Origin: Pseudomonadota bacterium
Lineage (GTDB): Bacteria; Pseudomonadota; Gammaproteobacteria; Burkholderiales; Methylophilaceae
Length of the DNA stretch: 64,000 bases
Assembly (NCBI GenBank): GCA_020053735.1
Contig: JAGVMP010000011.1
Location: 124,001-188,000, forward strand
Direction of reading: 5' to 3'
Shown here: piece after piece, positions 649 to 11,284 of the stretch
Numbering within the stretch: position 1 is the first letter of the stretch
How the letters are laid out: every line of letters begins with the position of its first letter
Program-made: the position numbers and the translations under genes
The notes under the pieces: model-generated
What the model was told of the DNA's origin: nothing
Databases searched by the model: none
Seen by the model: only the letters and a program-made list of their open reading frames with translations

Positions 649-1335
649 TTAATGCCAATCCGTAATCGGAGCTGGATAAGTACCAACAGCACCAACTCTT
701 GCTTTTGCAGCGGCATAGTTCGCTTCTTTTTGTTGCTGTATCACGAGCTTGTTTTTAACCTCCGCTAACTGCGTACTCAGTTGCATCTGCATCATGGCGT
801 TCTGCACTTTGGTTTGCTCGCCTGCGATACGCGCTTGCAACTCTCCAATGGACTTAGGGTCGGTCGTGCTATTGATTTCGTTAATCAGACCTTGAATTTG
901 ACTTTGCAATGCCACACTGGTGTTGTAAGCATTTTCAAAACCCTGTTGGTCTTGATAATGCTTTTTAGCTTGCGCTTCGCAACGCGTCAGCTCAACACCT
1001 GCAAATCCGACGCAAATGGCAGGATGCTCTAATACTGGACTTAACACTTGGTTGTAAACATTTTTCCAGTCATCAGGCAGGTATTTTTTTAAGGAAGGAT
1101 CATTGAGCAGATTGCCAAACCCTCTATTGCCTGTCAGTGCCGTGTATTGCTGCACTTGTTGGTTAAACTGGTCTTTCATGGCGGTGAGTTGTAGTTCCCA
1201 TTTTTTGATATTTTCTAGAGTGTTGATTAGATTGGCGGCATCAATCACAGGAATACCGCCTGCATAAGCTGCGCTAGCCATCAATACACTCATCGCCAGC
1301 ACAAAAGCTATCATTGATTTTCTAACTTGTTTCAT
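649..1335 (-). CDS. virB5: VirB5-family type IV secretion protein
   Basis: VirB5 is a minor pilus component of P-type conjugation machines, thought to act at the pilus tip. The 228-residue product has a signal peptide (residues 1-25, cleavage expected after AYA), then the VirB5/TrbJ pattern of helical Gln-rich segments (LTAMKDQFNQQVQQY near residue 52) and a long amphipathic helix after residue 140. It is the last gene of the leftward transfer cluster visible here. VirB6 and the core complex VirB7-B10 would be expected further left but are not in the window; a toxin-antitoxin pair follows instead. Confidence 0.82.
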   Translation of the reverse strand: MKQVRKSMIAFVLAMSVLMASAAYAGGIPVIDAANLINTLENIKKWELQLTAMKDQFNQQVQQYTALTGNRGFGNLLNDPSLKKYLPDDWKNVYNQVLSPVLEHPAICVGFAGVELTRCEAQAKKHYQDQQGFENAYNTSVALQSQIQGLINEINSTTDPKSIGELQARIAGEQTKVQNAMMQMQLSTQLAEVKNKLVIQQQKEANYAAAKARVGAVGTYPAPITDWH

Positions 1336-1411
1336 TTGAAACCTCCCTAGTAAAATATGAATATCCTAAAATTTAAATCTGTTGATTTTTTACGTAAAAA
1401 ATAATGGGCAT

Positions 1412-2032
1412 TCAATTGACCCAATGCCCGCAGGTTTTTGGGGTGTTGTAGTTCCCGCCAATACCTATACTGCCAATTCCCCCATACCCATTGCTTATGC
1501 CTTGAAATGGCCAAAAACCTGATTGTTGCGGCGGGTCTATCACATAATGTGCGCCCTGACCTAAATCGGTATATTCATGACCTTCATAGGCACTGCAATA
1601 GCTGGGTTTCGTGCTTGAGATGCAGCCCACACCAAACCCACCTATTATTCCACTGCCAGCCGTATAACTAAGCAGTGTGGCGTTAAGTGATGCTGCATCA
1701 CATCTGCCTGCACCATGCGCGATGGCTTGCACAAGTGACTGCATTTGTGGTGTCTGTGCCGACACTGGGCATAAATTCAAAAAGTTGATACGCGCGTCTA
1801 ACGTGTCGCTAAAATCATCAAAATCAATATCGAAGTAATGCGTGAGTGAAGGTGTGCATTCATTCGGTGGTGCGCCTGTTGATAGGCACAATATGGCTTC
1901 GCAGGACAGCTTCACCAAACCTGTCAGCACCCCATCCGCTTGTGCTAGGCTGATTTGTACTAGCAATGCTGCGGCAATCAACCACTTAATCAATGTTAGT
2001 TTTAATGCTGGTAACTGATGGGGATGGTTCAT
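1412..2032 (-). CDS. trbM: TrbM/KikA-family conjugal transfer protein
   Basis: The protein has a signal peptide (residues 1-32, ending AQA) and then the TrbM signature with conserved cysteines: LSCEAILCLSTG, ECTPSL, a FDIDFDD segment, and RINFLNLCPVS. TrbM proteins are periplasmic accessory factors of IncP-like conjugation systems with poorly defined biochemical roles. The C-terminal third is glycine-rich and ends in a cysteine-containing tail. The gene lies between virB4 and virB5, which fits a P-type transfer operon. Confidence 0.8.
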   Translation of the reverse strand: MNHPHQLPALKLTLIKWLIAAALLVQISLAQADGVLTGLVKLSCEAILCLSTGAPPNECTPSLTHYFDIDFDDFSDTLDARINFLNLCPVSAQTPQMQSLVQAIAHGAGRCDAASLNATLLSYTAGSGIIGGFGVGCISSTKPSYCSAYEGHEYTDLGQGAHYVIDPPQQSGFWPFQGISNGYGGIGSIGIGGNYNTPKTCGHWVN

Positions 2033-2087
2033 AGTTTGATTCCTTTTAATGAAGCTCTTGTGTGTACAGTTGGCAAATTGGCGGAAA

Positions 2088-4511
2088 CTAATCTAATTTC
2101 TGCACCCTGCTCTGCTTGGTTGCGGCCTTACGCTGCGCTAAACGCCCAAGGTAAATCGGCAACCAACTTTGCGGGTCGTCGCCCACCTCGGCGCGTGTAT
2201 CGTCGAGTATTTCCACGTTATCTAACGAGGTGCTCAATACATCGAGTATTTCATTCAAACCGCTCAAATCTAAAGTGACCACCGTGGATTTATGACCTTG
2301 TTTAACTAGAAACTGGTGACTTGCTTCACCGAGGGTGCGGATGGTGTGAAATTCCATCTCGGTGACTTTAAAACCTGTCACGTAATCATCGTAGTCAGCT
2401 TTGGGGTTGGGTAAAAAGATCTGCGTTGCACATTGCTCTACCATGGCGGCAACATGCGGTGTTTTGAGGATTTGCGCTGGACTTTGCGTATCAAAGATAC
2501 CAAAGCCATTTTGTTTACGAATGGTGTACTGCTTGTTTATTGCAAAATCAGTGAATTCTGGTAACTCTAAACGTTTCCAAAACTCCGCCATCACATAAAT
2601 AAAGCGGCGGCCATCAATCAGGTTTTCTGTGAGATGCAGCAAGTACATCGTGACAGGCGCTAACAGCTCTTTGTCTTCCAAGAAATCTGTATCATCAAAT
2701 CCAAACAAACGACCTTGGTTTAAGTCAATGGTGTCATTTGGATTGTCCAGCACCCAGCCATGACTGCCACCGCGACACCATTTTTGCAAATAGGCGTATA
2801 CGCCATTTTCTTGAGTATTATCCAGCTGCTGGTTGATGGCATATAAGCCACGATTTTTTCGATCAAAGCCCATCATGATACGTATGGCATGTTCTAACTC
2901 CATACTTTCATTGGCTTTGAGTGGGTATGGCACGAGGCTTTGCACCAAGGTGACTAAAAAGCGAATATTTTGTTCGGTATTATTTAATTGAAAAGGATTG
3001 AACCCTGTCGGCACACCTTTTTTAAGCACACGATAATTGCCGCCCAGTGCACGCAGCGCAACTTCCGCACCACGGTCTTTATCAAAAAATACAATGGTCG
3101 GTTGGTATTTCAAGGTCATCAGCAACAAAAACAATTCCAGCACCGTTTTGCCTGAACCGGTCATACCAATAATGGTGGTGTTGGCTGGGGCTTTTTTATC
3201 AATAGAATCATCATCGTCATCTGTGCCATGAAAATTAAAGTAATACGGCGCACCATTGGGTGTTTTAAGTATAGTGACGGCCTCTCCCCACGGATTATTA
3301 TCGCGCTTACCCGTACCGAAGCTGTGCATGGCCGCCAAGCCCGCAAAGTTGCGTGAAGTCAGATACGCCTCACGCGGGCGGTTATTCCAATTACCTGGGT
3401 GTTGGGCAAACCACGCAGCATCGGCGACCAAATCAAGCAAGGCAGTTTGATAACCCTCATCACTCAGCACAGACCTTGCATGCGCCATATTGCGACTGGT
3501 TTCATCCAAGGTACTACCCAGCACCGCAAGCGTGTAGTGATATTCGCCATAGACAAAATCCCCATTGGTGAGCTGGTCTAGTGCCACATTTAGTGCATTG
3601 ATTTGTGAAACCCCAGCGTCTTCGGTGGTGATGAGTTGATTGCGTTGCCTCTCTAATTTATCTTTGGCTGTTGGTTTGTCTAATATGGAGAAACTTTGCG
3701 TTTCAATATACTCATAAGGCGTGTAAAGCAAGCCATTTAAGCAGCCTGAGTCTGTGTTTTCTGGGTAATCTTTTAGGTCTAGTAGTGCGGCAAATCGTTT
3801 TTGATTTGGCGCGCGTATTTCTAACTTCTCACCGACAAAAAACAAACGTGAAGTCTGCAATATCTCTCGAATACAATGGTTGGTGACGGGGACTTTTTCC
3901 CATACGCCATTAAGCAAATAGCCATAAAAAGCTAATTGCTGTGAATACTGGATGTTATTTTCTTGGTAGGTGCTGAGTCGTTCTATCTGGTAGACCTTAA
4001 GCGAGGTTTGAATTTGCGCGACCAGTTCTGCCATTTTAATCAACGCATAGTTCTCAGCTTCTTTGAGCGCACGCGCTGATTTTTCTGTCATGCCGATTAC
4101 GCGACCAAACAAGCCAGTTTTTACTGCGCCATACGGGCGATAACACAAGGTCAGGTAGGTTTCGTTGAGCATCATGTTATAACCGTCAAAGCTTGCGTAG
4201 TAACGCTGAGCCAAGTTCTCTGAAAACGCATCAGGGTACGGTTGCTGAAACTGGTCGCAGTGTTGGCGACGAATACGGTGCGACCATAAAGCCACCCCAC
4301 CCAAGCCGCGAATCAGTTGGTTAAGTGCCTCTTTTTTGATGCTTAAATCAACCGCATCAGTGGTTTCAAATGGAATACCCTCAATACGCCAAGTGCTGAT
4401 GTACGTGCCGTCTAGGTTGCGCACAACGGAATCTGTCACCAAACTACTGTAAGGTAAGTCTTGTGCTGCGGTGATTTCGTGATTAGCAATATGCTGATGT
4501 TTTGCAGTCAT
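2088..4511 (-). CDS. virB4: VirB4-family conjugation ATPase
   Basis: This 807-residue protein has the CagE/TrbE/VirB family layout: an N-terminal membrane-apposed domain and a C-terminal ATPase domain. The Walker A motif GMTGSGKT is at about residues 449-456. VirB4 ATPases energise pilus assembly and substrate transfer at the inner membrane. The expected Walker B region reads VMAEFWKRL, with alanine (residue 642) where the family normally has aspartate before the catalytic glutamate. Length is normal for the family. The start codon follows directly on the origin-like repeat block. Confidence 0.93.
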   Translation of the reverse strand: MTAKHQHIANHEITAAQDLPYSSLVTDSVVRNLDGTYISTWRIEGIPFETTDAVDLSIKKEALNQLIRGLGGVALWSHRIRRQHCDQFQQPYPDAFSENLAQRYYASFDGYNMMLNETYLTLCYRPYGAVKTGLFGRVIGMTEKSARALKEAENYALIKMAELVAQIQTSLKVYQIERLSTYQENNIQYSQQLAFYGYLLNGVWEKVPVTNHCIREILQTSRLFFVGEKLEIRAPNQKRFAALLDLKDYPENTDSGCLNGLLYTPYEYIETQSFSILDKPTAKDKLERQRNQLITTEDAGVSQINALNVALDQLTNGDFVYGEYHYTLAVLGSTLDETSRNMAHARSVLSDEGYQTALLDLVADAAWFAQHPGNWNNRPREAYLTSRNFAGLAAMHSFGTGKRDNNPWGEAVTILKTPNGAPYYFNFHGTDDDDDSIDKKAPANTTIIGMTGSGKTVLELFLLLMTLKYQPTIVFFDKDRGAEVALRALGGNYRVLKKGVPTGFNPFQLNNTEQNIRFLVTLVQSLVPYPLKANESMELEHAIRIMMGFDRKNRGLYAINQQLDNTQENGVYAYLQKWCRGGSHGWVLDNPNDTIDLNQGRLFGFDDTDFLEDKELLAPVTMYLLHLTENLIDGRRFIYVMAEFWKRLELPEFTDFAINKQYTIRKQNGFGIFDTQSPAQILKTPHVAAMVEQCATQIFLPNPKADYDDYVTGFKVTEMEFHTIRTLGEASHQFLVKQGHKSTVVTLDLSGLNEILDVLSTSLDNVEILDDTRAEVGDDPQSWLPIYLGRLAQRKAATKQSRVQKLD

Positions 4512-4514
4512 GGC

Positions 4515-4630
4515 TTTTTAGTCTCAATGTTTAATTTCAATTTACTGGTCATTTTTTTGCTAGTCGTTTTTTGCTATCAATTTTTAAGCGCACTCTTTTT
4601 AAAAGCTTTTAAATATATTAAATCTCTTTA
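4515..4630. other. AT-rich segment next to the iteron block (candidate DNA unwinding element)
   Basis: This 116-bp stretch is strongly AT-rich. It contains two direct 10-mers TTTTTTGCTA (4553-4562 and 4567-4576) and an ATATATTAAAT run just before the first repeat. Iteron origins typically have an AT-rich unwinding region with short direct repeats beside the initiator sites. It also serves as the leader of virB4, so the AT-richness alone does not prove an origin. Confidence 0.45.
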
Positions 4631-4634
4631 GTGC

Positions 4635-4807
4635 GACACCCATGTCACCTATTCGGGGCTAAACCCTGACACCCATGTCGCCTATTTGAGTTATACACAA
4701 GACACCGATGTCACCCATTTTTGAGTTATCCACAAAACTTTGCAGTTATACACACGACAGCCATGTCATGTATTTGAAGGAAACACATGACACCTGTGTC
4801 ACCTATT
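4635..4807. other. Five phased 19-bp repeats with DnaA-like boxes: candidate replication origin (oriV)
   Basis: Five copies of a 19-bp unit (first copy GACACCCATGTCACCTATT) start at 4635, 4668, 4701, 4756 and 4789. The steps are 33, 33, 55 and 33 bp, all multiples of 11, so all sites face the same side of the helix. Each copy holds a small dyad, GACA-N4-TGTC. Between them lie a perfect DnaA box TTATCCACA (4726-4734) and two near matches TTATACACA (4691-4699 and 4746-4754). This is the layout of an iteron-controlled plasmid origin. The block directly follows the Rep-like gene. An alternative is a partition centromere bound by the element's ParB. Confidence 0.65.
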
Positions 4808-4825
4808 TCTGCTTTAACCATGCGC

Positions 4826-5428
4826 TTAATGCTCCGTTTCATGGTTAATAGGCTCTATGGTGAGCCCGCCTTTCTCGGCAAATTTTCTGATTAGGTTCTG
4901 CATATCAGGATTAAATTTGCTTAAATCGACAGACTGATGATTGATAGTATTGCCATTTCCTGAGACGTTATTGATGTTGATTTGTAAGTTCTCAATCTGA
5001 ATAATCTGTCCGCTTTCAGGTAACGCAGATTTGATATATTGCTTCAATTCATCTATGGTATTGCTCACCATGGTGGGGACGTAATCCCACGATGCTTCAG
5101 CCGCCGTGTTGCCAAATAAGTCACGAATGGCAAGTTTTTCTCGTAACACGTAATGGTTATTTCTACCGAGCTTTTGCATGTTGATATACGCTAAATCTTG
5201 CAACTCTTTGATACAGCGCATGACTTGCCGATCAGAAAGTCCTGACTTGAGCGAAATGGTTTCCAGGCTAGGAAAAGACGCGCCCGTATTGAAATTACAG
5301 TGCGATTTAATCACTAAATACACCTTAATAGATGAGCCACTCATCTTGGCCATGTCACCATTTTCTATCATGGATCTGAACAAATGAAACCATTGTGTAT
5401 CGGCTTGCAGCGCAATCGACGTGTCCAT
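4826..5428 (-). CDS. Winged-helix (HTH_36-like) protein, probable replication initiator or regulator
   Basis: The N-terminal half (about residues 25-100) looks like a winged-helix domain: KVYLVIKSHCNFNTGASFPS, then the recognition pattern SLKSGLSDRQVMRCIKELQ. This arrangement is common in plasmid replication proteins and some phage regulators. The C-terminal half is less recognisable and contains an Asn-rich INNVSGNGNTINHQ segment. It lies inside the virB cluster between virB3 and virB4 and directly next to five iteron-like repeats, so I infer that it binds them. At 200 residues it is short for a complete initiator. Replication function is unproven. Confidence 0.6.
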   Translation of the reverse strand: MDTSIALQADTQWFHLFRSMIENGDMAKMSGSSIKVYLVIKSHCNFNTGASFPSLETISLKSGLSDRQVMRCIKELQDLAYINMQKLGRNNHYVLREKLAIRDLFGNTAAEASWDYVPTMVSNTIDELKQYIKSALPESGQIIQIENLQININNVSGNGNTINHQSVDLSKFNPDMQNLIRKFAEKGGLTIEPINHETEH

Positions 5429-5454
5429 GTTGGCCTAACTTTTTTCTGTTATTT

Positions 5455-5772
5455 TCATGGAGTTTTGCGCCTTTTATAACGCATTGGCGCATAGCTTTTT
5501 GCGCCCCAGAACTGCGTGTTACGATGCCTTAAACTCATCTGCAGCCTGAGTACGTGTTGCATGAGTCGCTGGTCATCAAACTTAGAGATAGTTTTCATAA
5601 CGACGAATATCGGTATCATTAACACCAGCGCGATAAGACCAATGATTGGTTTTAACCATAAGCCCCACATGCTGATGAGCACTAATGGTAACGCGACAAA
5701 CATCAACGGCATCAATGGCACACCGCCCAACATGGAAGGGCGTGTACAGCCTTTAAATACTGAATCGCTCAT
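5455..5772 (-). CDS. virB3: VirB3-family type IV secretion protein
   Basis: The 105-residue protein has two adjacent hydrophobic segments in its first half (roughly residues 17-58, starting GGVPLMPLMFVALPLVLIS) and a basic C-terminus. This is the VirB3 pattern of a small inner-membrane protein that works with VirB4. It starts 2 bases after virB2 ends, giving a tight virB2-virB3 pair. The PSMLGGVP motif near the N-terminus is typical of the family. Confidence 0.87.
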   Translation of the reverse strand: MSDSVFKGCTRPSMLGGVPLMPLMFVALPLVLISMWGLWLKPIIGLIALVLMIPIFVVMKTISKFDDQRLMQHVLRLQMSLRHRNTQFWGAKSYAPMRYKRRKTP

Positions 5773-5774
5773 GT

Positions 5775-6116
5775 TTACGGTGCCACAATCACAAGCGCAA
5801 TCGCACCTGCTGAACCAATAATGACCGCACCGATAAACACGCTGGCCAAATCAACAAATTGTGCTTGTTTCGTCATGACTTTATAGCCATTCCACATCAC
5901 TACTACCGTCGCCACCCCTACTGCCAAGCCACCTAGCCATGCCACAACCTGATTCAGCATATTAGTGCCTGCGGTTAAGCCTGCATAAGCAGGTGTTGCC
6001 AGCATCAACATACTGATAGAAAAAGTGGCGCATACAAATTGAATCCATGCTCTATACTGCGGCTCATGTAGCGTTTTATACACATCTGGTTTTTGCGTAC
6101 TAGCCAATGTTTGCAT
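5775..6116 (-). CDS. virB2: VirB2/TrbC-family major pilin
   Basis: The 113-residue prepilin has a long N-terminal leader with cleavage expected after residues ATPAYA (about residue 45). Two hydrophobic helices follow (VVAWLGGLAVGVATVVVMWNG and VFIGAVIIGSAGAIALVIV), joined by a short basic loop. This is the conserved layout of VirB2 and TrbC pilins, which polymerise into the conjugative pilus. The gene lies between virB1 and virB3 as in classical P-type systems. Confidence 0.9.
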   Translation of the reverse strand: MQTLASTQKPDVYKTLHEPQYRAWIQFVCATFSISMLMLATPAYAGLTAGTNMLNQVVAWLGGLAVGVATVVVMWNGYKVMTKQAQFVDLASVFIGAVIIGSAGAIALVIVAP

Positions 6117-6172
6117 TGCGTATTTTTCCTTTTTAGTTTAAAAATTATCCTGATGAACGGAGTTTTCAGTTT

Positions 6173-6751
6173 TTAAAACACCACCGCACTGCCCGTGTTG
6201 ACTGCTTTAATTTGTGGCTTAGCTTTAGTCGGCAAGTATTCTGTTTTAACGCGATTGCGTACGTTACTATCGCTGGCTTTACTGGTCATGTCTGCTTTAC
6301 TAGATATTAGCGTTAGCTTTGCCATCACCTTGTTGGCATATTGCGTACCCACACGTGAATTGAGCTGTCCAGCGTAGTAACAAGACAAGGCTTTATGAGT
6401 GGCTTGTTGCTGATAACCTTGTGCAATCGCACGATTGAAACATTCCGCCAGTATTTGGCTGCCAGCGTTTAAGTTGATACAAGTGTCAAAACCATTGTCT
6501 AATTTCAGGTTAAATCGACTAAAGTTGCTACGATTTACTTGCGCGACACCAATGGAATAGTTATAGCCTGCATGCTCCAAATAGTGGGCTGTCGCTTTAG
6601 CTTCGGCTAAGTTTTGTGGTTGCCGCAGTAAACGCGCGTTTACCACACCGATGGCGTAAGGATTGTGGCCAGACTCCACGCTAATAACGCTTTGCATGAG
6701 CTGGTGATTAATCATAGGCGCGCATTGCTGAATGATGAGTGCGTCTAGCAT
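6173..6751 (-). CDS. virB1: VirB1-like lytic transglycosylase
   Basis: The protein carries an SLT-type fold: an N-terminal helix, the catalytic motif SVESGHNPYAIGVV with glutamate at residue 26, then SIGVAQVNRSNF and the later LSCYYAGQLNSR. Such enzymes open gaps in peptidoglycan for assembly of the secretion channel. No clear signal peptide is visible at the chosen start, so export may depend on the system or on an upstream start. It begins 6 bases after parB ends, so the partition and transfer genes appear co-transcribed. Confidence 0.88.
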   Translation of the reverse strand: MLDALIIQQCAPMINHQLMQSVISVESGHNPYAIGVVNARLLRQPQNLAEAKATAHYLEHAGYNYSIGVAQVNRSNFSRFNLKLDNGFDTCINLNAGSQILAECFNRAIAQGYQQQATHKALSCYYAGQLNSRVGTQYANKVMAKLTLISSKADMTSKASDSNVRNRVKTEYLPTKAKPQIKAVNTGSAVVF

Positions 6752-6757
6752 ATCTGC

Positions 6758-7786
6758 CTATTCCCTGCCCTGCGCCTCAGTCAGCATACTGAGCTTCACC
6801 TGCTTGGCGAGCACTTCTATCGTTTTACCTGTATCGTCTAATTTAATCCATACAAAACCAACTTCTGTTGGTCGCTCGTGTAGCATCACTACACATGATT
6901 GATTGCCTTGATAATAGGCCAGCAGTAACGGTTTTTTAATCTTGCTTGGTTCTGTCGATTGAGTGCTGGCAGGCGCTTTGTTGGGGTCGTAATAAGGAAG
7001 TGTTTGTATCGTTACAAGTGGGGTAGTAGCATTATCGCCATCGGCTTGTTTTAGCGTAGACGTTGAATCTGTATCGGCCTCTAACGACTTACGCGCTTGC
7101 AGTATAAGCGCATTAGTAATCTCATCATGATGACTGATAATCGACTCTGTTAATCGTGGCGATTCGTCGTAGAGTTTATTCAACTGATAAACCAGCTGTG
7201 CGCCCTTCACTTTGCCAGCTTTATAGGCAGTTTCTACCAGTGCAGGCATTTCAGTTAAGGCCAAATGAAAACTGATATAGCTCGCGCTTTCCGATAACAG
7301 TTCCGCGATTTTGCCTTTGCTATCCCCTGCCGCAATGCGCTTTTTAATGAACAGCGCAATATCCATGGCAGCCATGTTGGCGCGTTTGGTGTTTTCAAGG
7401 ACTTGGCTGTAATCATCAAAAATCACCGCATCTTGCTGAACAATAGCCGCTATCGTACTTAACTCGGCCTCAAGCGAGGCACGGTAGCGTCTTGCACCAT
7501 GAATAATGGTGTAAATGCCCTCAACTGTAGGCCGCACATGGATGGGCGTTTGCACACCCCTGCGCTTGATGTCACTGACAAAGTCTAGCCAGTGCTCATC
7601 ATGGAAATCTTTACGTGGCTGGTTTTTATCTTCAATGATTTGACTCAAGGGGATGGCCAATATCACATTAAGTTGATTGTCGGGCTTGGGTGCTGTACTA
7701 GTACTGCTTGTGCCAAATGTGCCATGAGGCAGCTGATCAAAAGCACTCAGGTCAAAACTAGATTTAAGTGTAGTGGCCGTATTCAT
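6758..7786 (-). CDS. parB: ParB-family partition protein
   Basis: The N-terminal nuclease-like domain shows the ParB boxes: PLSQIIEDKNQPRKDF (near residue 50) and IHGARRYRAS (near residue 97). An HTH region follows (KGKIAELLSESASYISFHLAL), then a divergent C-terminal domain of about 100 residues. ParB binds a centromere and stimulates ParA. Both proteins are common on conjugative elements that pass through a circular stage. It begins 6 bases after parA. No canonical parS was seen; the 19-bp repeats at 4635-4807 are a possible alternative binding site. Confidence 0.88.
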   Translation of the reverse strand: MNTATTLKSSFDLSAFDQLPHGTFGTSSTSTAPKPDNQLNVILAIPLSQIIEDKNQPRKDFHDEHWLDFVSDIKRRGVQTPIHVRPTVEGIYTIIHGARRYRASLEAELSTIAAIVQQDAVIFDDYSQVLENTKRANMAAMDIALFIKKRIAAGDSKGKIAELLSESASYISFHLALTEMPALVETAYKAGKVKGAQLVYQLNKLYDESPRLTESIISHHDEITNALILQARKSLEADTDSTSTLKQADGDNATTPLVTIQTLPYYDPNKAPASTQSTEPSKIKKPLLLAYYQGNQSCVVMLHERPTEVGFVWIKLDDTGKTIEVLAKQVKLSMLTEAQGRE

Positions 7787-7792
7787 TTGTGC

Positions 7793-8749
7793 CTAGCCAA
7801 GCTGCCCGCCAACTCTGGCTTTTTGTTCGGCTAAATGGATGATATTGCTAGCTATATGCTCCCCTACTTCACGTTCAGTTTGGTCGTGCGCTATTTGTGC
7901 ATGTTCTACTTGGCTATGCTCTTCTACGCCAATACGCTCCAATATCAAATCGAATATCTTGCGTAAGTTTGCCCAGGTACTACGTGCCATGGTGTTGGTT
8001 TTAACTATATCGGCAAGCGATATGCCTTGTTTTTGACATTCGGAAATAGCTGAGCGAAGTGGAATTAAAGCAACCACGCCTTCGTTGTTGGTGAAGAAGT
8101 GCTGACCTATGCGTTCATTCAGTTCTTTAAGCGCAGCGCGTTGCGTCTCATTGCTTTGCACTTTATTCGGTAAAAACCCTAAAAATTGCAGTTTGGGATT
8201 TAGTATCGATTTAATATTAAGAATACCGCGCTGGCCATACAACGTATTACTCATGCCTTCAATGGATTCTTGCATGAGTTCAATCGGACTTAATACCGCA
8301 TTGGCCAACGTGAGCGCAATCGTGACTCTAATATCCAGCGATGGTGGCCCGTCGATAATACAAATATCATAATAGGCATCCATGCTTTCTAAAAACTGGG
8401 CAAAGTGTTGATGCGCAAGTGAGGATAGTTCAGTTTTTATGCCGCCAACCTCTACTTTCACACGTGCTTGCTCTACTAACACACCATTGAAGCGGCCATC
8501 GGCAGCCAAAATATTAAAGCCACTGTTATCTGGGTTAATGCTGACTGGCTTCATCATGACTTCAGTCACTGTTTTGGAGAGTGGCATCACCTTGCCACTA
8601 CGCGCTAAACAATGCGTGGTGTTGGCTTGATCATCAAAATCAATTACCAGCACCCGATAGCCTTGCGATCGCGCATAAAAAGCCAATTGGCAAGTTTGGG
8701 TCGATTTGCCCACTCCACCCTTTTGTATACCGATGTAGAGAGTTTTCAT
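7793..8749 (-). CDS. parA: ParA-family partition ATPase
   Basis: The deviant Walker A motif KGGVGKST lies at residues 10-17 when the start is taken at 8749. Further motifs are VLVIDFDDQANTTH and DICIIDGPPSL (Walker B). The start at 8749 was preferred over 8788 because it places the P-loop at the usual distance from the N-terminus and because an upstream 50-residue ORF ends 7 bases before it. ParA ATPases move DNA or place cargo together with ParB. The C-terminal tail after about residue 280 is charged and poorly conserved. Confidence 0.9.
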   Translation of the reverse strand: MKTLYIGIQKGGVGKSTQTCQLAFYARSQGYRVLVIDFDDQANTTHCLARSGKVMPLSKTVTEVMMKPVSINPDNSGFNILAADGRFNGVLVEQARVKVEVGGIKTELSSLAHQHFAQFLESMDAYYDICIIDGPPSLDIRVTIALTLANAVLSPIELMQESIEGMSNTLYGQRGILNIKSILNPKLQFLGFLPNKVQSNETQRAALKELNERIGQHFFTNNEGVVALIPLRSAISECQKQGISLADIVKTNTMARSTWANLRKIFDLILERIGVEEHSQVEHAQIAHDQTEREVGEHIASNIIHLAEQKARVGGQLG

Positions 8750-8756
8750 GATTTGG

Positions 8757-8909
8757 TTACCAAGCAGCGGCAAGTCCGCCCAAGTCATTCAATATTTTTT
8801 GAGTGCGCAAATTCAGGTCATTTTTTTGCTTAGGCATAAGCTCTGCCCAAGCGGCCATTTCTAAATCTAGCGCTAAGCAATGTCTAAGAATAGTCTGGTT
8901 TATATTCAT
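8757..8909 (-). CDS. Small 50-residue ORF at the head of the parAB-virB operon
   Basis: An ORF of 51 codons (MNINQTILRHCLALDLEMA... ending LGGLAAAW) ends 7 bases before parA. The sequence looks like a short, mostly helical acidic protein, and I do not recognise a family. Its stop codon is followed by the parA start with almost no gap, which suggests translational coupling. It is the first ORF after the operator-promoter at 9011-9040. It may be a real small regulator or only a leader peptide; the start codon context is weak. Confidence 0.5.
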   Translation of the reverse strand: MNINQTILRHCLALDLEMAAWAELMPKQKNDLNLRTQKILNDLGGLAAAW

Positions 8910-9010: not shown

Positions 9011-9040
9011 ATATTACGTTATATCGTATATATTTGTCAA
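9011..9040 (-). promoter_or_regulatory. Promoter and operator of the parAB-virB operon
   Basis: On the minus strand, TTGACA (9040-9035) and TAATAT (9016-9011) are separated by 18 bases. The spacer and start of the -10 box contain a dyad TACG-ATATAA-CGTA (9015-9028). The same dyad in the same position relative to -35 and -10 occurs in the integrase promoter at 9787-9816. A repressor bound here would block the polymerase. The adjacent XRE protein is the obvious candidate. Confidence 0.7.
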
Positions 9041-9076
9041 CGACTTTCCGTAATTGCTTTATGCAATACTTTAAAT

Positions 9077-9436
9077 ATGAATTTAAGCACTAGATTACGT
9101 ATAGCTTTAGAGCGCAAAAGCCTGAAATCAGTTGATTTGGCCAAGGCGACAGGCATTGGTACAGGCACAATCGGCGACTGGCTGTCAGGCAAGTCTAAGA
9201 CGATGGTTGTTGAAAACGCATTCAAAGTATGTGAGTTCCTAGATGTGACACAAGAATGGCTGTTTTTTGGCAAAGGTAGCGTTGACGACATTCAAAATGA
9301 CACACCTAAAAGAAAAATAGCCAACCAATTGTTAGCACAAACGCCTGAGTATGCGATAGATGATGCGGTGAGCAGACTTTCTGATCTCAAGAAACTCATC
9401 GAAACCGCGCAAAAAAGTACCGCGACGGGTCAGTAA
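9077..9436 (+). CDS. Small XRE/cI-like transcriptional regulator
   Basis: The first 65 residues form a classic lambda-repressor-type HTH: LRIALERKSLKSVDLAKATG, then GTIGDWLSGKSKTM and the EFLDVTQEWLFFG segment found in many prophage and element regulators. The remaining 50 residues are a charged helical tail without a LexA/CI-type peptidase domain. It sits between the parA-virB promoter and the eexN/integrase promoter pair. Matching operators lie at those promoters, so it probably controls the choice between quiescence and transfer. Confidence 0.82.
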   Translation: MNLSTRLRIALERKSLKSVDLAKATGIGTGTIGDWLSGKSKTMVVENAFKVCEFLDVTQEWLFFGKGSVDDIQNDTPKRKIANQLLAQTPEYAIDDAVSRLSDLKKLIETAQKSTATGQ

Positions 9437-9505
9437 TGTTATTCAGCTACGTATTCATAATAAGTTAGATTCTGATAAGTAATAAATAGACAATAAACTT
9501 ACAAG

Positions 9506-9751
9506 CTATTTCCCTATATTAGCTTTAGCAGCTTCATACTGCAATTCTTGCAATGCATGTCTCGCGTTTTTACAATTAGGCACATCCCTACGCTCATCTA
9601 GGTTCTCGCGACACCACGCACTTACCTTAAACCTTAAAGCTTCGTCTTTCTTTAAATCGGGTACGGTGTAAATTTTTTCCGTTGGCGAGCAAGCAATCAT
9701 CGTCAGAATGAGTGCTGAAATTACCGTAGTTTTAGCCAGCTTATTTTCCAT
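9506..9751 (-). CDS. EexN-like small lipoprotein (entry exclusion candidate)
   Basis: The 81-residue product has a lipoprotein signal with lipobox MIAC (Cys at residue 21). The mature part has the pattern of EexN proteins of P-type conjugative elements: a helical charged stretch, a WCRENLDERRDVPNC segment with two cysteines, and an Asn/Ala-rich helix. EexN lipoproteins are linked to blocking uptake of a second copy. Assignment rests on this pattern and on the conjugative context. It is transcribed divergently from the integrase genes and away from the regulator. Confidence 0.6.
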   Translation of the reverse strand: MENKLAKTTVISALILTMIACSPTEKIYTVPDLKKDEALRFKVSAWCRENLDERRDVPNCKNARHALQELQYEAAKANIGK

Positions 9752-9770
9752 ACTTTAGCTCCCTCGCTTT

Positions 9771-9788
9771 ATTATACGAATTACCGTT
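9771..9788 (-). promoter_or_regulatory. Probable eexN promoter with degenerate operator
   Basis: On the minus strand a -10 box TATAAT (9776-9771) is entered by a degenerate copy of the TACG-N6-CGTA dyad: the plus strand reads TACG-AATTAC-CGTT (9775-9788). The relation of the operator half-site to the -10 box is the same as in the parA promoter. The -35 box is poor. Confidence 0.45.
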
Positions 9789-9816
9789 GACAATTAAATA
9801 CGTTTTAACGTATATT
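9787..9816 (+). promoter_or_regulatory. Promoter and operator of the DUF4224/integrase operon
   Basis: TTGACA (9787-9792) and TATATT (9811-9816) are separated by 18 bases. A dyad TACG-TTTTAA-CGTA (9799-9812) covers the end of the spacer and the start of the -10 box. The architecture is superimposable on the parA-virB promoter at 9011-9040. Confidence 0.7.
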
Positions 9817-10063: not shown

Positions 10064-11116
10064 ATGGCGCAGGGTCGTAGACCAACAGTTCATGCGAATT
10101 TACCACCACATATGCGTGCACGCGTACGCGGCGACACTACCTACTATTATTACGACACTGGCGGCAAGCCACGCAAAGAAATTTCACTAGGTAAAGTTTA
10201 TGTTGAAGCCATCCGAAGGTGGTCTGAGTTAGAAGGTAAAAAAACCACACCATTAATTTACTTTAAAGATATTGCTGATCGCTATTTGCTCGAAATTGTA
10301 CCCACTAAAGCAGCACGCACACAAATCGACAACGTACGCGAAATGCAAAATTTAATTGCATTTTTTAACAACCCACCAGCACCCATCGCAGAAATTAGGC
10401 CGATACACGTTAGGCAATACCTCAATTGGCGTACAGATAACGGTAAAAAAAGTACAGTGCGTGCCAACCGTGAAAAATCTTTGCTTTCTCACCTATTTAA
10501 CATTGCACGTGACTGGGGGGCACTGGATACCGTCAACCCATGTCAAGGTATCAAGGGTTATACGGAAGAAGGTCGAGATGTTTACGTCGAAGATAATATC
10601 TATGATGCAATTTATCAAGTGGCAAGCCAACCACTTAAAGATGCGCTGGATTTAGCTTATTTGACTGGGCAACGTCCTGCTGACGTTATCGCGATGAGCG
10701 AGGCAGACATCCAAGATAAAATTCTGCTAGTTCAACAAGGCAAAACCAATGCTAAGCTACGCATTAGCATTACTGGGGAATTGAAATCACTCCTAGAGCG
10801 CATACTGAAAAGCAAGCAAGCTCACAAAGTGCGTACTTCGCAATTGATATGCACCGAAACAGGCAGACCGATCAGTCAAAATGCATTAAGACTTAGATTC
10901 GATAAAGCACGAGATAAAGCCATTAAACAAAATCCCGCAATAGCGAAAGATGTTAAGCATTTTCAGTTTAGGGATTTAAGAGCAAAAGCAGCGAGCGATA
11001 AAGCAGAAAGTGAAACGATGCGTGACGCTCAGTTGCAATTAGGGCATAGCTCTATGGCTATGACAGAGCAATATGTTAGGCAACGTCGCGGGCAAAAAGT
11101 AAGCCCAACCAGATAG
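10064..11116 (+). CDS. Tyrosine-type site-specific integrase
   Basis: This 350-residue phage-type integrase should insert and excise the element at the neighbouring tRNA-Lys. There is an N-terminal arm-binding region, a SAM-like core-binding domain (about residues 65-155) and a catalytic domain. Visible active-site residues include Arg204 in TGQRPADV, the FRDLRAKAAS box, LGHSS and the nucleophile Tyr337 in MTEQYVR. The gene ends 92 bases from the tRNA 3' end, the typical place. Length is normal for this group. Confidence 0.93.
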   Translation: MAQGRRPTVHANLPPHMRARVRGDTTYYYYDTGGKPRKEISLGKVYVEAIRRWSELEGKKTTPLIYFKDIADRYLLEIVPTKAARTQIDNVREMQNLIAFFNNPPAPIAEIRPIHVRQYLNWRTDNGKKSTVRANREKSLLSHLFNIARDWGALDTVNPCQGIKGYTEEGRDVYVEDNIYDAIYQVASQPLKDALDLAYLTGQRPADVIAMSEADIQDKILLVQQGKTNAKLRISITGELKSLLERILKSKQAHKVRTSQLICTETGRPISQNALRLRFDKARDKAIKQNPAIAKDVKHFQFRDLRAKAASDKAESETMRDAQLQLGHSSMAMTEQYVRQRRGQKVSPTR

Positions 11117-11202: not shown

Positions 11203-11208
11203 TGGTAT

Positions 11209-11284
11209 TGGTAGGGCGTGCGGGGATCGAACCCACGACAAACGGATTAAAAGTCCGCTGCTCTACCAGCTGAGCTAACGCCCC
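11209..11284 (-). tRNA. tRNA-Lys (anticodon UUU), attachment target of the element
   Basis: The reverse complement folds into a complete cloverleaf of 76 bases: acceptor GGGGCGT paired with ACGCCCT, D-loop AGCTCAGCTGGTAGAGC, anticodon loop with CTTTTAA, T-arm with GGTTCGATCC, and an encoded CCA end. The anticodon UUU reads lysine codons. The 3' end faces the integrase gene, so the insertion probably regenerated the tRNA 3' end. The other attachment copy would lie left of the window. Confidence 0.97.

Follow-up and report, generated by a model that had tools for sequence, protein, structure and literature searches.

Integrative and conjugative elements (ICEs) of the SXT/R391 group have as their master SetR, a CI-like repressor induced through the SOS response, and ICEBs1 encodes ImmR, a short XRE immunity repressor with divergent targets that include xis. 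Going by the abstracts, the SetR/SetCD control of SXT/R391 ICEs is a close known system for the switch described here (PMC4542580, PMC4344509). On pLS20, as the abstract summarizes it, the regulator RcoLS20 acts at divergent overlapping promoters, represses the conjugation genes and has two operators (PMC4207663); heteroimmune phages are represented, again by abstract, by the Cluster A phages (PMC6550527).

The left part of a 64,000-nucleotide stretch of a Methylophilaceae contig (GenBank assembly GCA_020053735.1; this whole stretch is called the window) is the right end of a mobile element integrated at tRNA-Lys, in which a 119-residue XRE protein is encoded between two control regions with paired dyads. 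The window element is abbreviated W and its contig C14; L- and G-labels denote loci and genomes of relatives. An ICE master repressor with a paired operator belongs to a known class, of which the apparently co-exchanged specificity and the candidate +1-frame tail reported below are notable variant features. Like ImmR, the regulator is a short XRE protein of an ICE whose putative targets include xis; no ImmA-like protease was among the family matches of the element proteins examined in a general family search. SetR differs by its SOS induction, the window regulator showing only helix-turn-helix (HTH) families. With the P22 c2 and 434 repressors it shares the HTH fold, paired operators overlapping promoters and, by prediction, immunity groups, but the window element is conjugative and its repressor is without a C-terminal peptidase-like domain.

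The backbone recalls pSB102, which we take to be a PromA plasmid. The pSB102 ParA is 35% identical, a KorB gene is likewise adjacent, and VirB4 is 44% identical (AJ304453, incC-korB-korA). In pSB102, korA stands before incC, whereas the window element has a divergent XRE gene beside parA, and integrates; its repressor stands where pSB102-like plasmids have korA. A KorA/TrfB model match was absent in the regulator (HTH_26 and HTH_3 only), though ParA and KorB homologues are present. The likeness to pLS20 lies in a regulator at divergent promoters over conjugation genes and in two operators, but pLS20 is a Gram-positive plasmid with tetramer looping between operators, and its abstract names neither integrase/excisionase control nor exchanged specificity, unlike what is proposed here (PMC4207663). 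In open-licence literature searched by title and start of abstract, from which subscription journals are mostly missing, nothing was found on the element, on its operators or on an XRE repressor with a frameshift. The locus would represent a compact master switch for a family of environmental ICEs, with partition, transfer and excision apparently wired to one small repressor.

The element and its regulator

Since the 49-bp repeat occurs both at the tRNA gene and far to the left on C14 (Table 1), the element is about 36 kb long, measured between its two copies. It classes by gene content as an ICE because an integrase, direct att-like repeats at a tRNA gene, a relaxase, a T4SS-DNA_transf coupling protein and the VirB1-like to VirB6 and VirB8 to VirB11 families are all present; VirB7 was not recognised in the family search of element proteins. 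The transfer run, in which the PF07996 protein is presumably VirB5-like, extends left beyond the window with VirB6, B8, B9, B10, B11, VirD4-like coupling protein, NikA-like, relaxase and TraX families. A longer parA ORF (to 8788) is less likely because the matches of eight relatives start at residues 10-13. Around a Burkholderia VirB4 relative, 42 kb gave no match to ParA, KorB or the regulator at 1e-6.

Table 1. Features of the element (window positions unless a contig is named; SLT, VirB1-like)
Feature	Position	Strand	Evidence or remark
Left copy of 49-bp repeat	C14:99297-99345 (window -24703)		
Start of transfer run: SLT, VirB2, VirB3, HTH_36 protein, VirB4, TrbM, PF07996 protein	649-6751	-	
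ParB/KorB-type protein	6758-7786	-	ParB_N, KorB, KorB_C
ParA ATPase, ATG at 8750	7793-8750	-	AAA_31 9.9e-27
ORF of 50 aa, first in parA gene run	8757-8909	-	no PHROG match
parA-side promoter, TTGACA-18-TAATAT	9011-9040	-	promoter scan, 10/12 matches
Strong dyad, parA side, TACG-N6-CGTA	9015-9028	-	between -35 and -10
Weak dyad, parA side, TACG-N6-CGTT (minus strand)	9039-9052	-	24 bp from strong dyad
XRE/CI-like regulator, 119 aa	9077-9436	+	Pfam HTH_26 6.2e-07, HTH_3 4e-05, above gathering scores
Regulator codons with almost no synonymous change among other elements	9386-9415	+	alignment columns 105-114
+1-frame tail, NVIQLRIHNKLDSDK	9435-9479	+	counterparts in eight elements
EexN-family entry-exclusion lipoprotein	9506-9751	-	NCBIfam NF033894 (Eex_IncN) 5.7e-13, above cut-off
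TATAAT facing eexN, without recognisable -35	9771-9776	-	no promoter reported there by scan
Weak dyad, xis/int side	9775-9788	+	also overlaps eexN -10 of minus strand
xis-int promoter, TTGACA-18-TATATT	9787-9816	+	promoter scan, 11/12 matches
Strong dyad, xis/int side	9799-9812	+	
DUF4224 / PHROG excisionase-like gene, 67 aa	9857-10060	+	Pfam PF13986 1.8e-10; phrog_8896 excisionase 4.2e-11
Tyrosine integrase, 350 aa, adjoining tRNA	10064-11116	+	Phage_integrase 4.3e-19
Right 49-bp direct repeat	11208-11256		over 3' part of tRNA-Lys gene 11209-11284

The cI-like gene that the initial annotation had placed between the sites is confirmed there, encoding an XRE/CI-like protein matched by HTH_26 and HTH_3. 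Its AF2 model (mean pLDDT 78, lower after residue 60) has helices at residues 18-25 and 29-37, the second of which (TGTIGDWLS) is the predicted recognition helix. The best Foldseek match in the PDB was the P22 c2 repressor-operator complex (E 5e-4), and the DNA-binding domain of Bacillus subtilis ImmR (7t8i) was among the matches. The absence of a cleavage domain also held, only HTH families being matched in the 119 residues. Cleavage of the SOS type (inactivation like that of CI or LexA) is unlikely because the family search found no S24 peptidase domain in the window regulator; the L023 and L032 regulators likewise gave HTH families only, apart from a sub-threshold chance row.

Several genes in the left part of the element (L004:15580-18612, L003:547-7160) look like envelope modification cargo: a sigma54-type response regulator with a sensor kinase, PMT-family and glycosyl transferases, PAP2, a sulfatase-fold protein and a metallophosphatase. 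A DNA N6/N4 methyltransferase gene (L003:8058-8738, plus strand) has a counterpart that is 87% identical (L043:8130-8777) in the G140 contig 126 element. An integrase-like C-terminal fragment (L004:14988-15188; translation read by eye) adjoins the left att repeat on its left side and is possibly a remnant of another element at the same site.

Paired dyads in two control regions

Two TACG-N6-CGTA dyads had been annotated (9015-9028 and 9799-9812), each six bases after a -35 TTGACA and with its last two bases beginning a -10 box at 18-bp spacing; both are present at those positions with that layout. With a fourth dyad (9039-9052), absent from the initial annotation, each region has two dyads at a distance of 24 bp and in matching order, so that both regions share a 38-bp layout, TACG-N6-CGTT-N10-TACG-N6-CGTA. 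In either region the weaker dyad ends in the first two bases of the -35 hexamer, and the stronger occupies the spacer as far as the -10 hexamer. A promoter scan returned four promoter-like sites in 1.4 kb against 3.4 expected, of which the parA-side and xis-int promoters were the best two. The remaining claimed site, at 9775-9788, fared less evenly: it has one mismatch and overlaps a perfect TATAAT by two bases, but no eexN promoter reached the scan threshold. That promoter is called weak, with a -10 only, because at a spacing of 17 or 18 bases the hexamers agree with TTGACA in 2/6 positions (by eye).

Counts of the single dyad were near chance, and its enrichment was rejected as proof: exact copies number 3 in the window against 0.55 expected (2/100 shuffles reach 3), and copies with at most one mismatch number 20 against 15.6 (15 shuffles reach 20). 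The paired pattern, derived from the two window sites, was searched genome-wide (2.44 Mb) at up to 3 mismatches, and only the parA-side and xis/int-side regions matched exactly. Eleven further rows comprised two mirror readings of the window pairs (2 mismatches) and nine matches with 3 mismatches; one 3-mismatch match lies inside the element (C14:106934-106971), and a backward-read control gave 37+36 matches at up to 3 mismatches. Because the pattern came from these very sites, an independent test was sought in relatives. Paired dyads were scored per region without reference to the motif (15 regions, L029 left out as near-identical to L028; 1000 first-order resampled shuffles). The observed score was reached by 80 and 34 of 1000 shuffles for the two window element regions, weak when taken alone, by 337 and 322 for the xis side of L023 and L024, also weak, and by 0-2 for the other 11/15 regions. 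Because the window regions are weak in this test, the case for operators rests on sharing between the regions and on covariation across elements.

A PWM scan of the whole window element found a fifth perfect TACG-N6-CGTA dyad (L003:3878-3891; C14:107878) inside a PAP2-family ORF. It has the best PWM score in the element, is unpaired and is probably a chance match because about 0.3 exact matches are expected in 36 kb (scaled from the window expectation). Four weaker matches each lie within an ORF, and none is paired.

We consider it highly likely that the ICE has its master repressor in the 119-aa XRE protein, which would act through paired sites in the two control regions. In both of these divergent regions a regulator dimer would bind each of the two 14-bp dyads, which are spaced 24 bp apart. 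On the strong site, in the -35/-10 spacer, the bound dimer would block RNA polymerase; on the weak site, ending at -35, a second dimer would bind, probably cooperatively. The 24-bp spacing and the 34-bp spacing found in some relatives differ by about one helical turn, which would suit two dimers interacting on one face. The parA-side region would serve the parA-korB-virB-...-relaxase run and, lying also in front of the regulator's own gene, autoregulation; the xis-side region would serve the excisionase-like gene and the integrase, perhaps with eexN on the opposite strand.

The regulator may instead be dual, a repressor of the two outward promoters and an activator of its own, for which the weak sites would be used; lambda OR is an example of such regulation, and we give this a clear minority share of our belief. 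The weak parA-side site does lie between the strong site and the regulator gene, and RcoLS20 works in this manner at the divergent promoters of pLS20, by the abstract (PMC4207663). Against it, the promoter scan identified no promoter for the regulator, and in the group-B relatives described below the parA-side sites are 34 bp apart, with a possible third half-site near the start codon that is only a 3-mismatch match (by eye).

Operator types and regulator specificity among relatives

Searched for in 187 genomes of the family at E<=1e-6, the regulator had 13 matches in 12 genomes. Five of these (G099, G101, G105, G106, G186), HTH-only at 30-35% identity in longer frames, were dropped before operators were counted; a search with the C-terminal half of the regulator gave 8 matches in 7 genomes. 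One further element (G171, L042) was found via ParA, and since its contig ends inside the regulator gene it was counted for the parA side only. The regulator gene is divergent from parA-korB-slt in all nine elements, as far as the contigs reach. Sampling at the level of the order (399 genomes, 159 genera) and of the class (369 genomes, 272 genera) at E<=1e-15 recovered no regulator outside the genome of the window itself; evidently neither sample included the six other carriers known from the family search. Wider genome contigs yielded two loci, on contigs identical to those of G149 and G152, and viral contigs no match. Among plasmids, the window regulator (P0001) matched six Acinetobacter records at 32-44% identity, three of them annotated S24 or LexA, and a group-B regulator matched three records; the conserved C-terminal part had no plasmid or phage match.

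The elements fall into two groups by operator. Group A consists of the window element, G149 (L023/L025) and G152 (L024/L027); group B of G160, G165, G166, G140 contig 24, G140 contig 126 and G171. All three members of group A have both pairs at 24-bp spacing. In group B a TTAGATATATCTAA-type pair is found on the parA side in 6/6, at a spacing of 34 bp (about one helical turn more), and on the xis side in all five with sequence there, at 24 bp. These counts overstate independence: G149 and G152 are nearly identical here, as are G160 and G165, so that group A represents two independent lineages and several B elements are near-copies. Of the related elements, those of G149 and G152 keep all four sites of the window element. 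Each group-B dyad is within one mismatch of the TTAGATATATCTAA-type consensus, and the strong one again lies between -35-like and -10-like hexamers (by eye). Nine group-B loci, none shown to hold a whole element, had no further dyad at up to 2 mismatches except L043:1815, a single 2-mismatch copy perhaps outside the element. Degenerate A-type dyads occur in B loci away from both regions (two in L013, one each in L014 and L015). Genome G140 (6% contamination) holds two group-B elements (L031, L032) with the same operator type.

The predicted recognition helix changes with the operators. It is TGTIGDWLS in the window regulator, TGTIGDWIS in L023 and L024, and APSVSAWLS in 5/5 complete group-B regulators, which are about 50% identical to the window regulator (46-51% for the four aligned). 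Helix and operator change together at both loci in the eight elements with complete regulator genes; the ninth shows a parA-side pair and only the start of the regulator gene. Over the HTH (columns 17-45) identity is 89-93% within group A (window against L023/L024; L023 93%) and 34-44% between groups. L023 is only 37% identical to group B in the HTH, yet over columns 67-120 it is 57% identical to the window regulator and 70-77% to the four aligned group-B proteins. Because its HTH matches the window regulator and its C-terminal part is closer to group B, the regulator has the look of a mosaic in which the DNA-reading part follows the operators.

A backbone tree was built from ParA, KorB, SLT, VirB3 and VirB4 (9 rows, two with <1000 residues), with the groups named beforehand from the operators. 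The window element, of group A, is sister to G140 contig 126, which has B operators (support 98/99), and a clade of the group A rows is rejected (p-AU 3.58e-05). Because this tree rejects grouping by operator type, the HTH appears to have been exchanged together with both operator pairs among related elements. The integrase is 97.7-99.1% identical between the window element and G160, G165 and G166 despite different operators; to judge from these comparisons, integration module, backbone and specificity reassort. Such exchanged sets of HTH and operator pairs would make two immunity groups, and, standing at nearly the same integrase, these two natural specificity groups allow a test of phage-like immunity and heteroimmunity in ICEs.

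The same evidence bears on who binds the dyads. On IncP-1 and PromA plasmids KorB acts as a global repressor, and the element encodes a KorB_C-type ParB, so the pairs might be bound by another element protein such as this one, the XRE protein acting elsewhere or on its own gene only. We find this improbable. The operator changes with the XRE recognition helix rather than the backbone, since on a tree that includes KorB the sisters W and G140 contig 126 differ in operators, and the sites flank the XRE gene in 8/8 elements with both sides readable. One pair lies ahead of xis-int and less than 1.5 kb from the att repeat, which would suit arm sites for Xis or integrase, but a recombination-accessory role of the dyads in place of an operator role is hardly credible: the second pair belongs to the parA promoter, each pair coincides precisely with -35/-10 elements, and the near-identical integrases of W and three group-B elements go with different dyads.

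Repression by the XRE protein had been proposed to cover integration and excision, partition and transfer, and entry exclusion alike. For the first two, through the parA and xis/int promoters, the proposal is well supported by the covariation across elements; for eexN the case is weak. Very probably the regulator is the repressor of the parA-korB-virB-relaxase run and of the excisionase-like and integrase genes. The genes behind the parA promoter follow one another on a single strand as far as relaxase and TraX, so this promoter may control the transfer genes as a whole. On the xis side of the window the operator is followed by the excisionase-like gene and then the integrase. L023 has a different integrase, encoded on the opposite strand, yet there too a small HTH gene follows the operator pair; its 68-aa HTH_17-like product is just below the Pfam cut-off and without a PHROG match, and is a putative excisionase. 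L024 is near-identical to L023 at the xis side (printed sequence). By these comparisons the operator tracks the gene at the excisionase position, whose control would be the conserved feature. An eexN homologue lies within the virB run in G160, G165, G166 and G140 contig 126 (e.g., L028:18654-18899; L032:7162-7359), and the sequence available for G149 and G152 showed no homologue. In the window eexN sits between regulator and xis, faced by a -10 only; the eexN branch thus seems, among the elements examined, special to the window element.

The regulator stop and the neighbouring reading frames

Programmed +1 frameshifting has a precedent in ICE control in FseA of ICEMlSymR7A (PMC10359603, PMC5882170, PMC5009743). 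The proteins differ in kind, FseA being an activator of DUF6499-DUF2285 type and the candidate here a repressor with a tail of 13-20 residues. Directly after the TAA stop, 8/8 complete regulator genes have a +1-frame tail, N-[VI]-[IV]-[KQ]-L-[CR]-I-[QH]-x-x-L-D-[FS], and at the stop itself all eight read CAR-UAA-Y. No plasmid matched the tail.

In this small sample of eight genes, parsimony on an assumed tree places 30 changes in the 13 tail codons, 9/3/18 at +1-frame positions 1/2/3 (chi-square p 0.0033, uncorrected for three frames inspected). The following 21 bases show no such bias (11/10/9 by phase), and regulator codons 61-100 give 26/8/60 in their own frame, as for coding sequence. The third-position bias is clear among the other elements (L023-L028, 3/0/10) and weak or absent in pairs with the window (W-L028, 5/2/4; W-L023, 4/2/7). 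Columns 105-114 of the regulator have three third-position changes, all on the window branch, where the rate in codons 61-100 would predict about 15 (Poisson p 2e-4, for a region picked after inspection of the data). Before the stop the phases 0/1/2 of the gene's own frame are mixed: 4/0/2 in columns 101-104, 6/1/3 in columns 105-114 and 5/3/9 in columns 115-120. An RNA fold of the frameshift region gave a weak consensus, 2/16 pairs having changes on both sides.

This signal suggests a programmed frameshift or an overlapping ORF under selection, and the odds that the +1-frame tail is translated are, in our estimate, slightly better than even. A frameshift is preferred over an independent small ORF in the +1 frame because ATG/GTG/TTG starts are not conserved and the window has none, though such an ORF might begin with CTG. 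Translated, the tail would add another case of ribosomal frameshifting in ICE control, here in a repressor, and could explain induction without cleavage. A fuller scheme, which we offer as speculative and doubt on balance, is that a +1 shift at or just before the stop yields two repressor forms (the longer with the tail), that their short/long ratio is a non-SOS, translation-sensing input for induction, and that HTH and operators are exchangeable as a set.

On the other side of the regulator gene, L023 has a 79-aa phage-regulator-like ORF (L023:5689-5928, minus strand) with weak PHROG matches, first of the parA run and opposite the repressor gene like a Cro; the counterpart position in the window holds the 50-aa ORF at 8757-8909.
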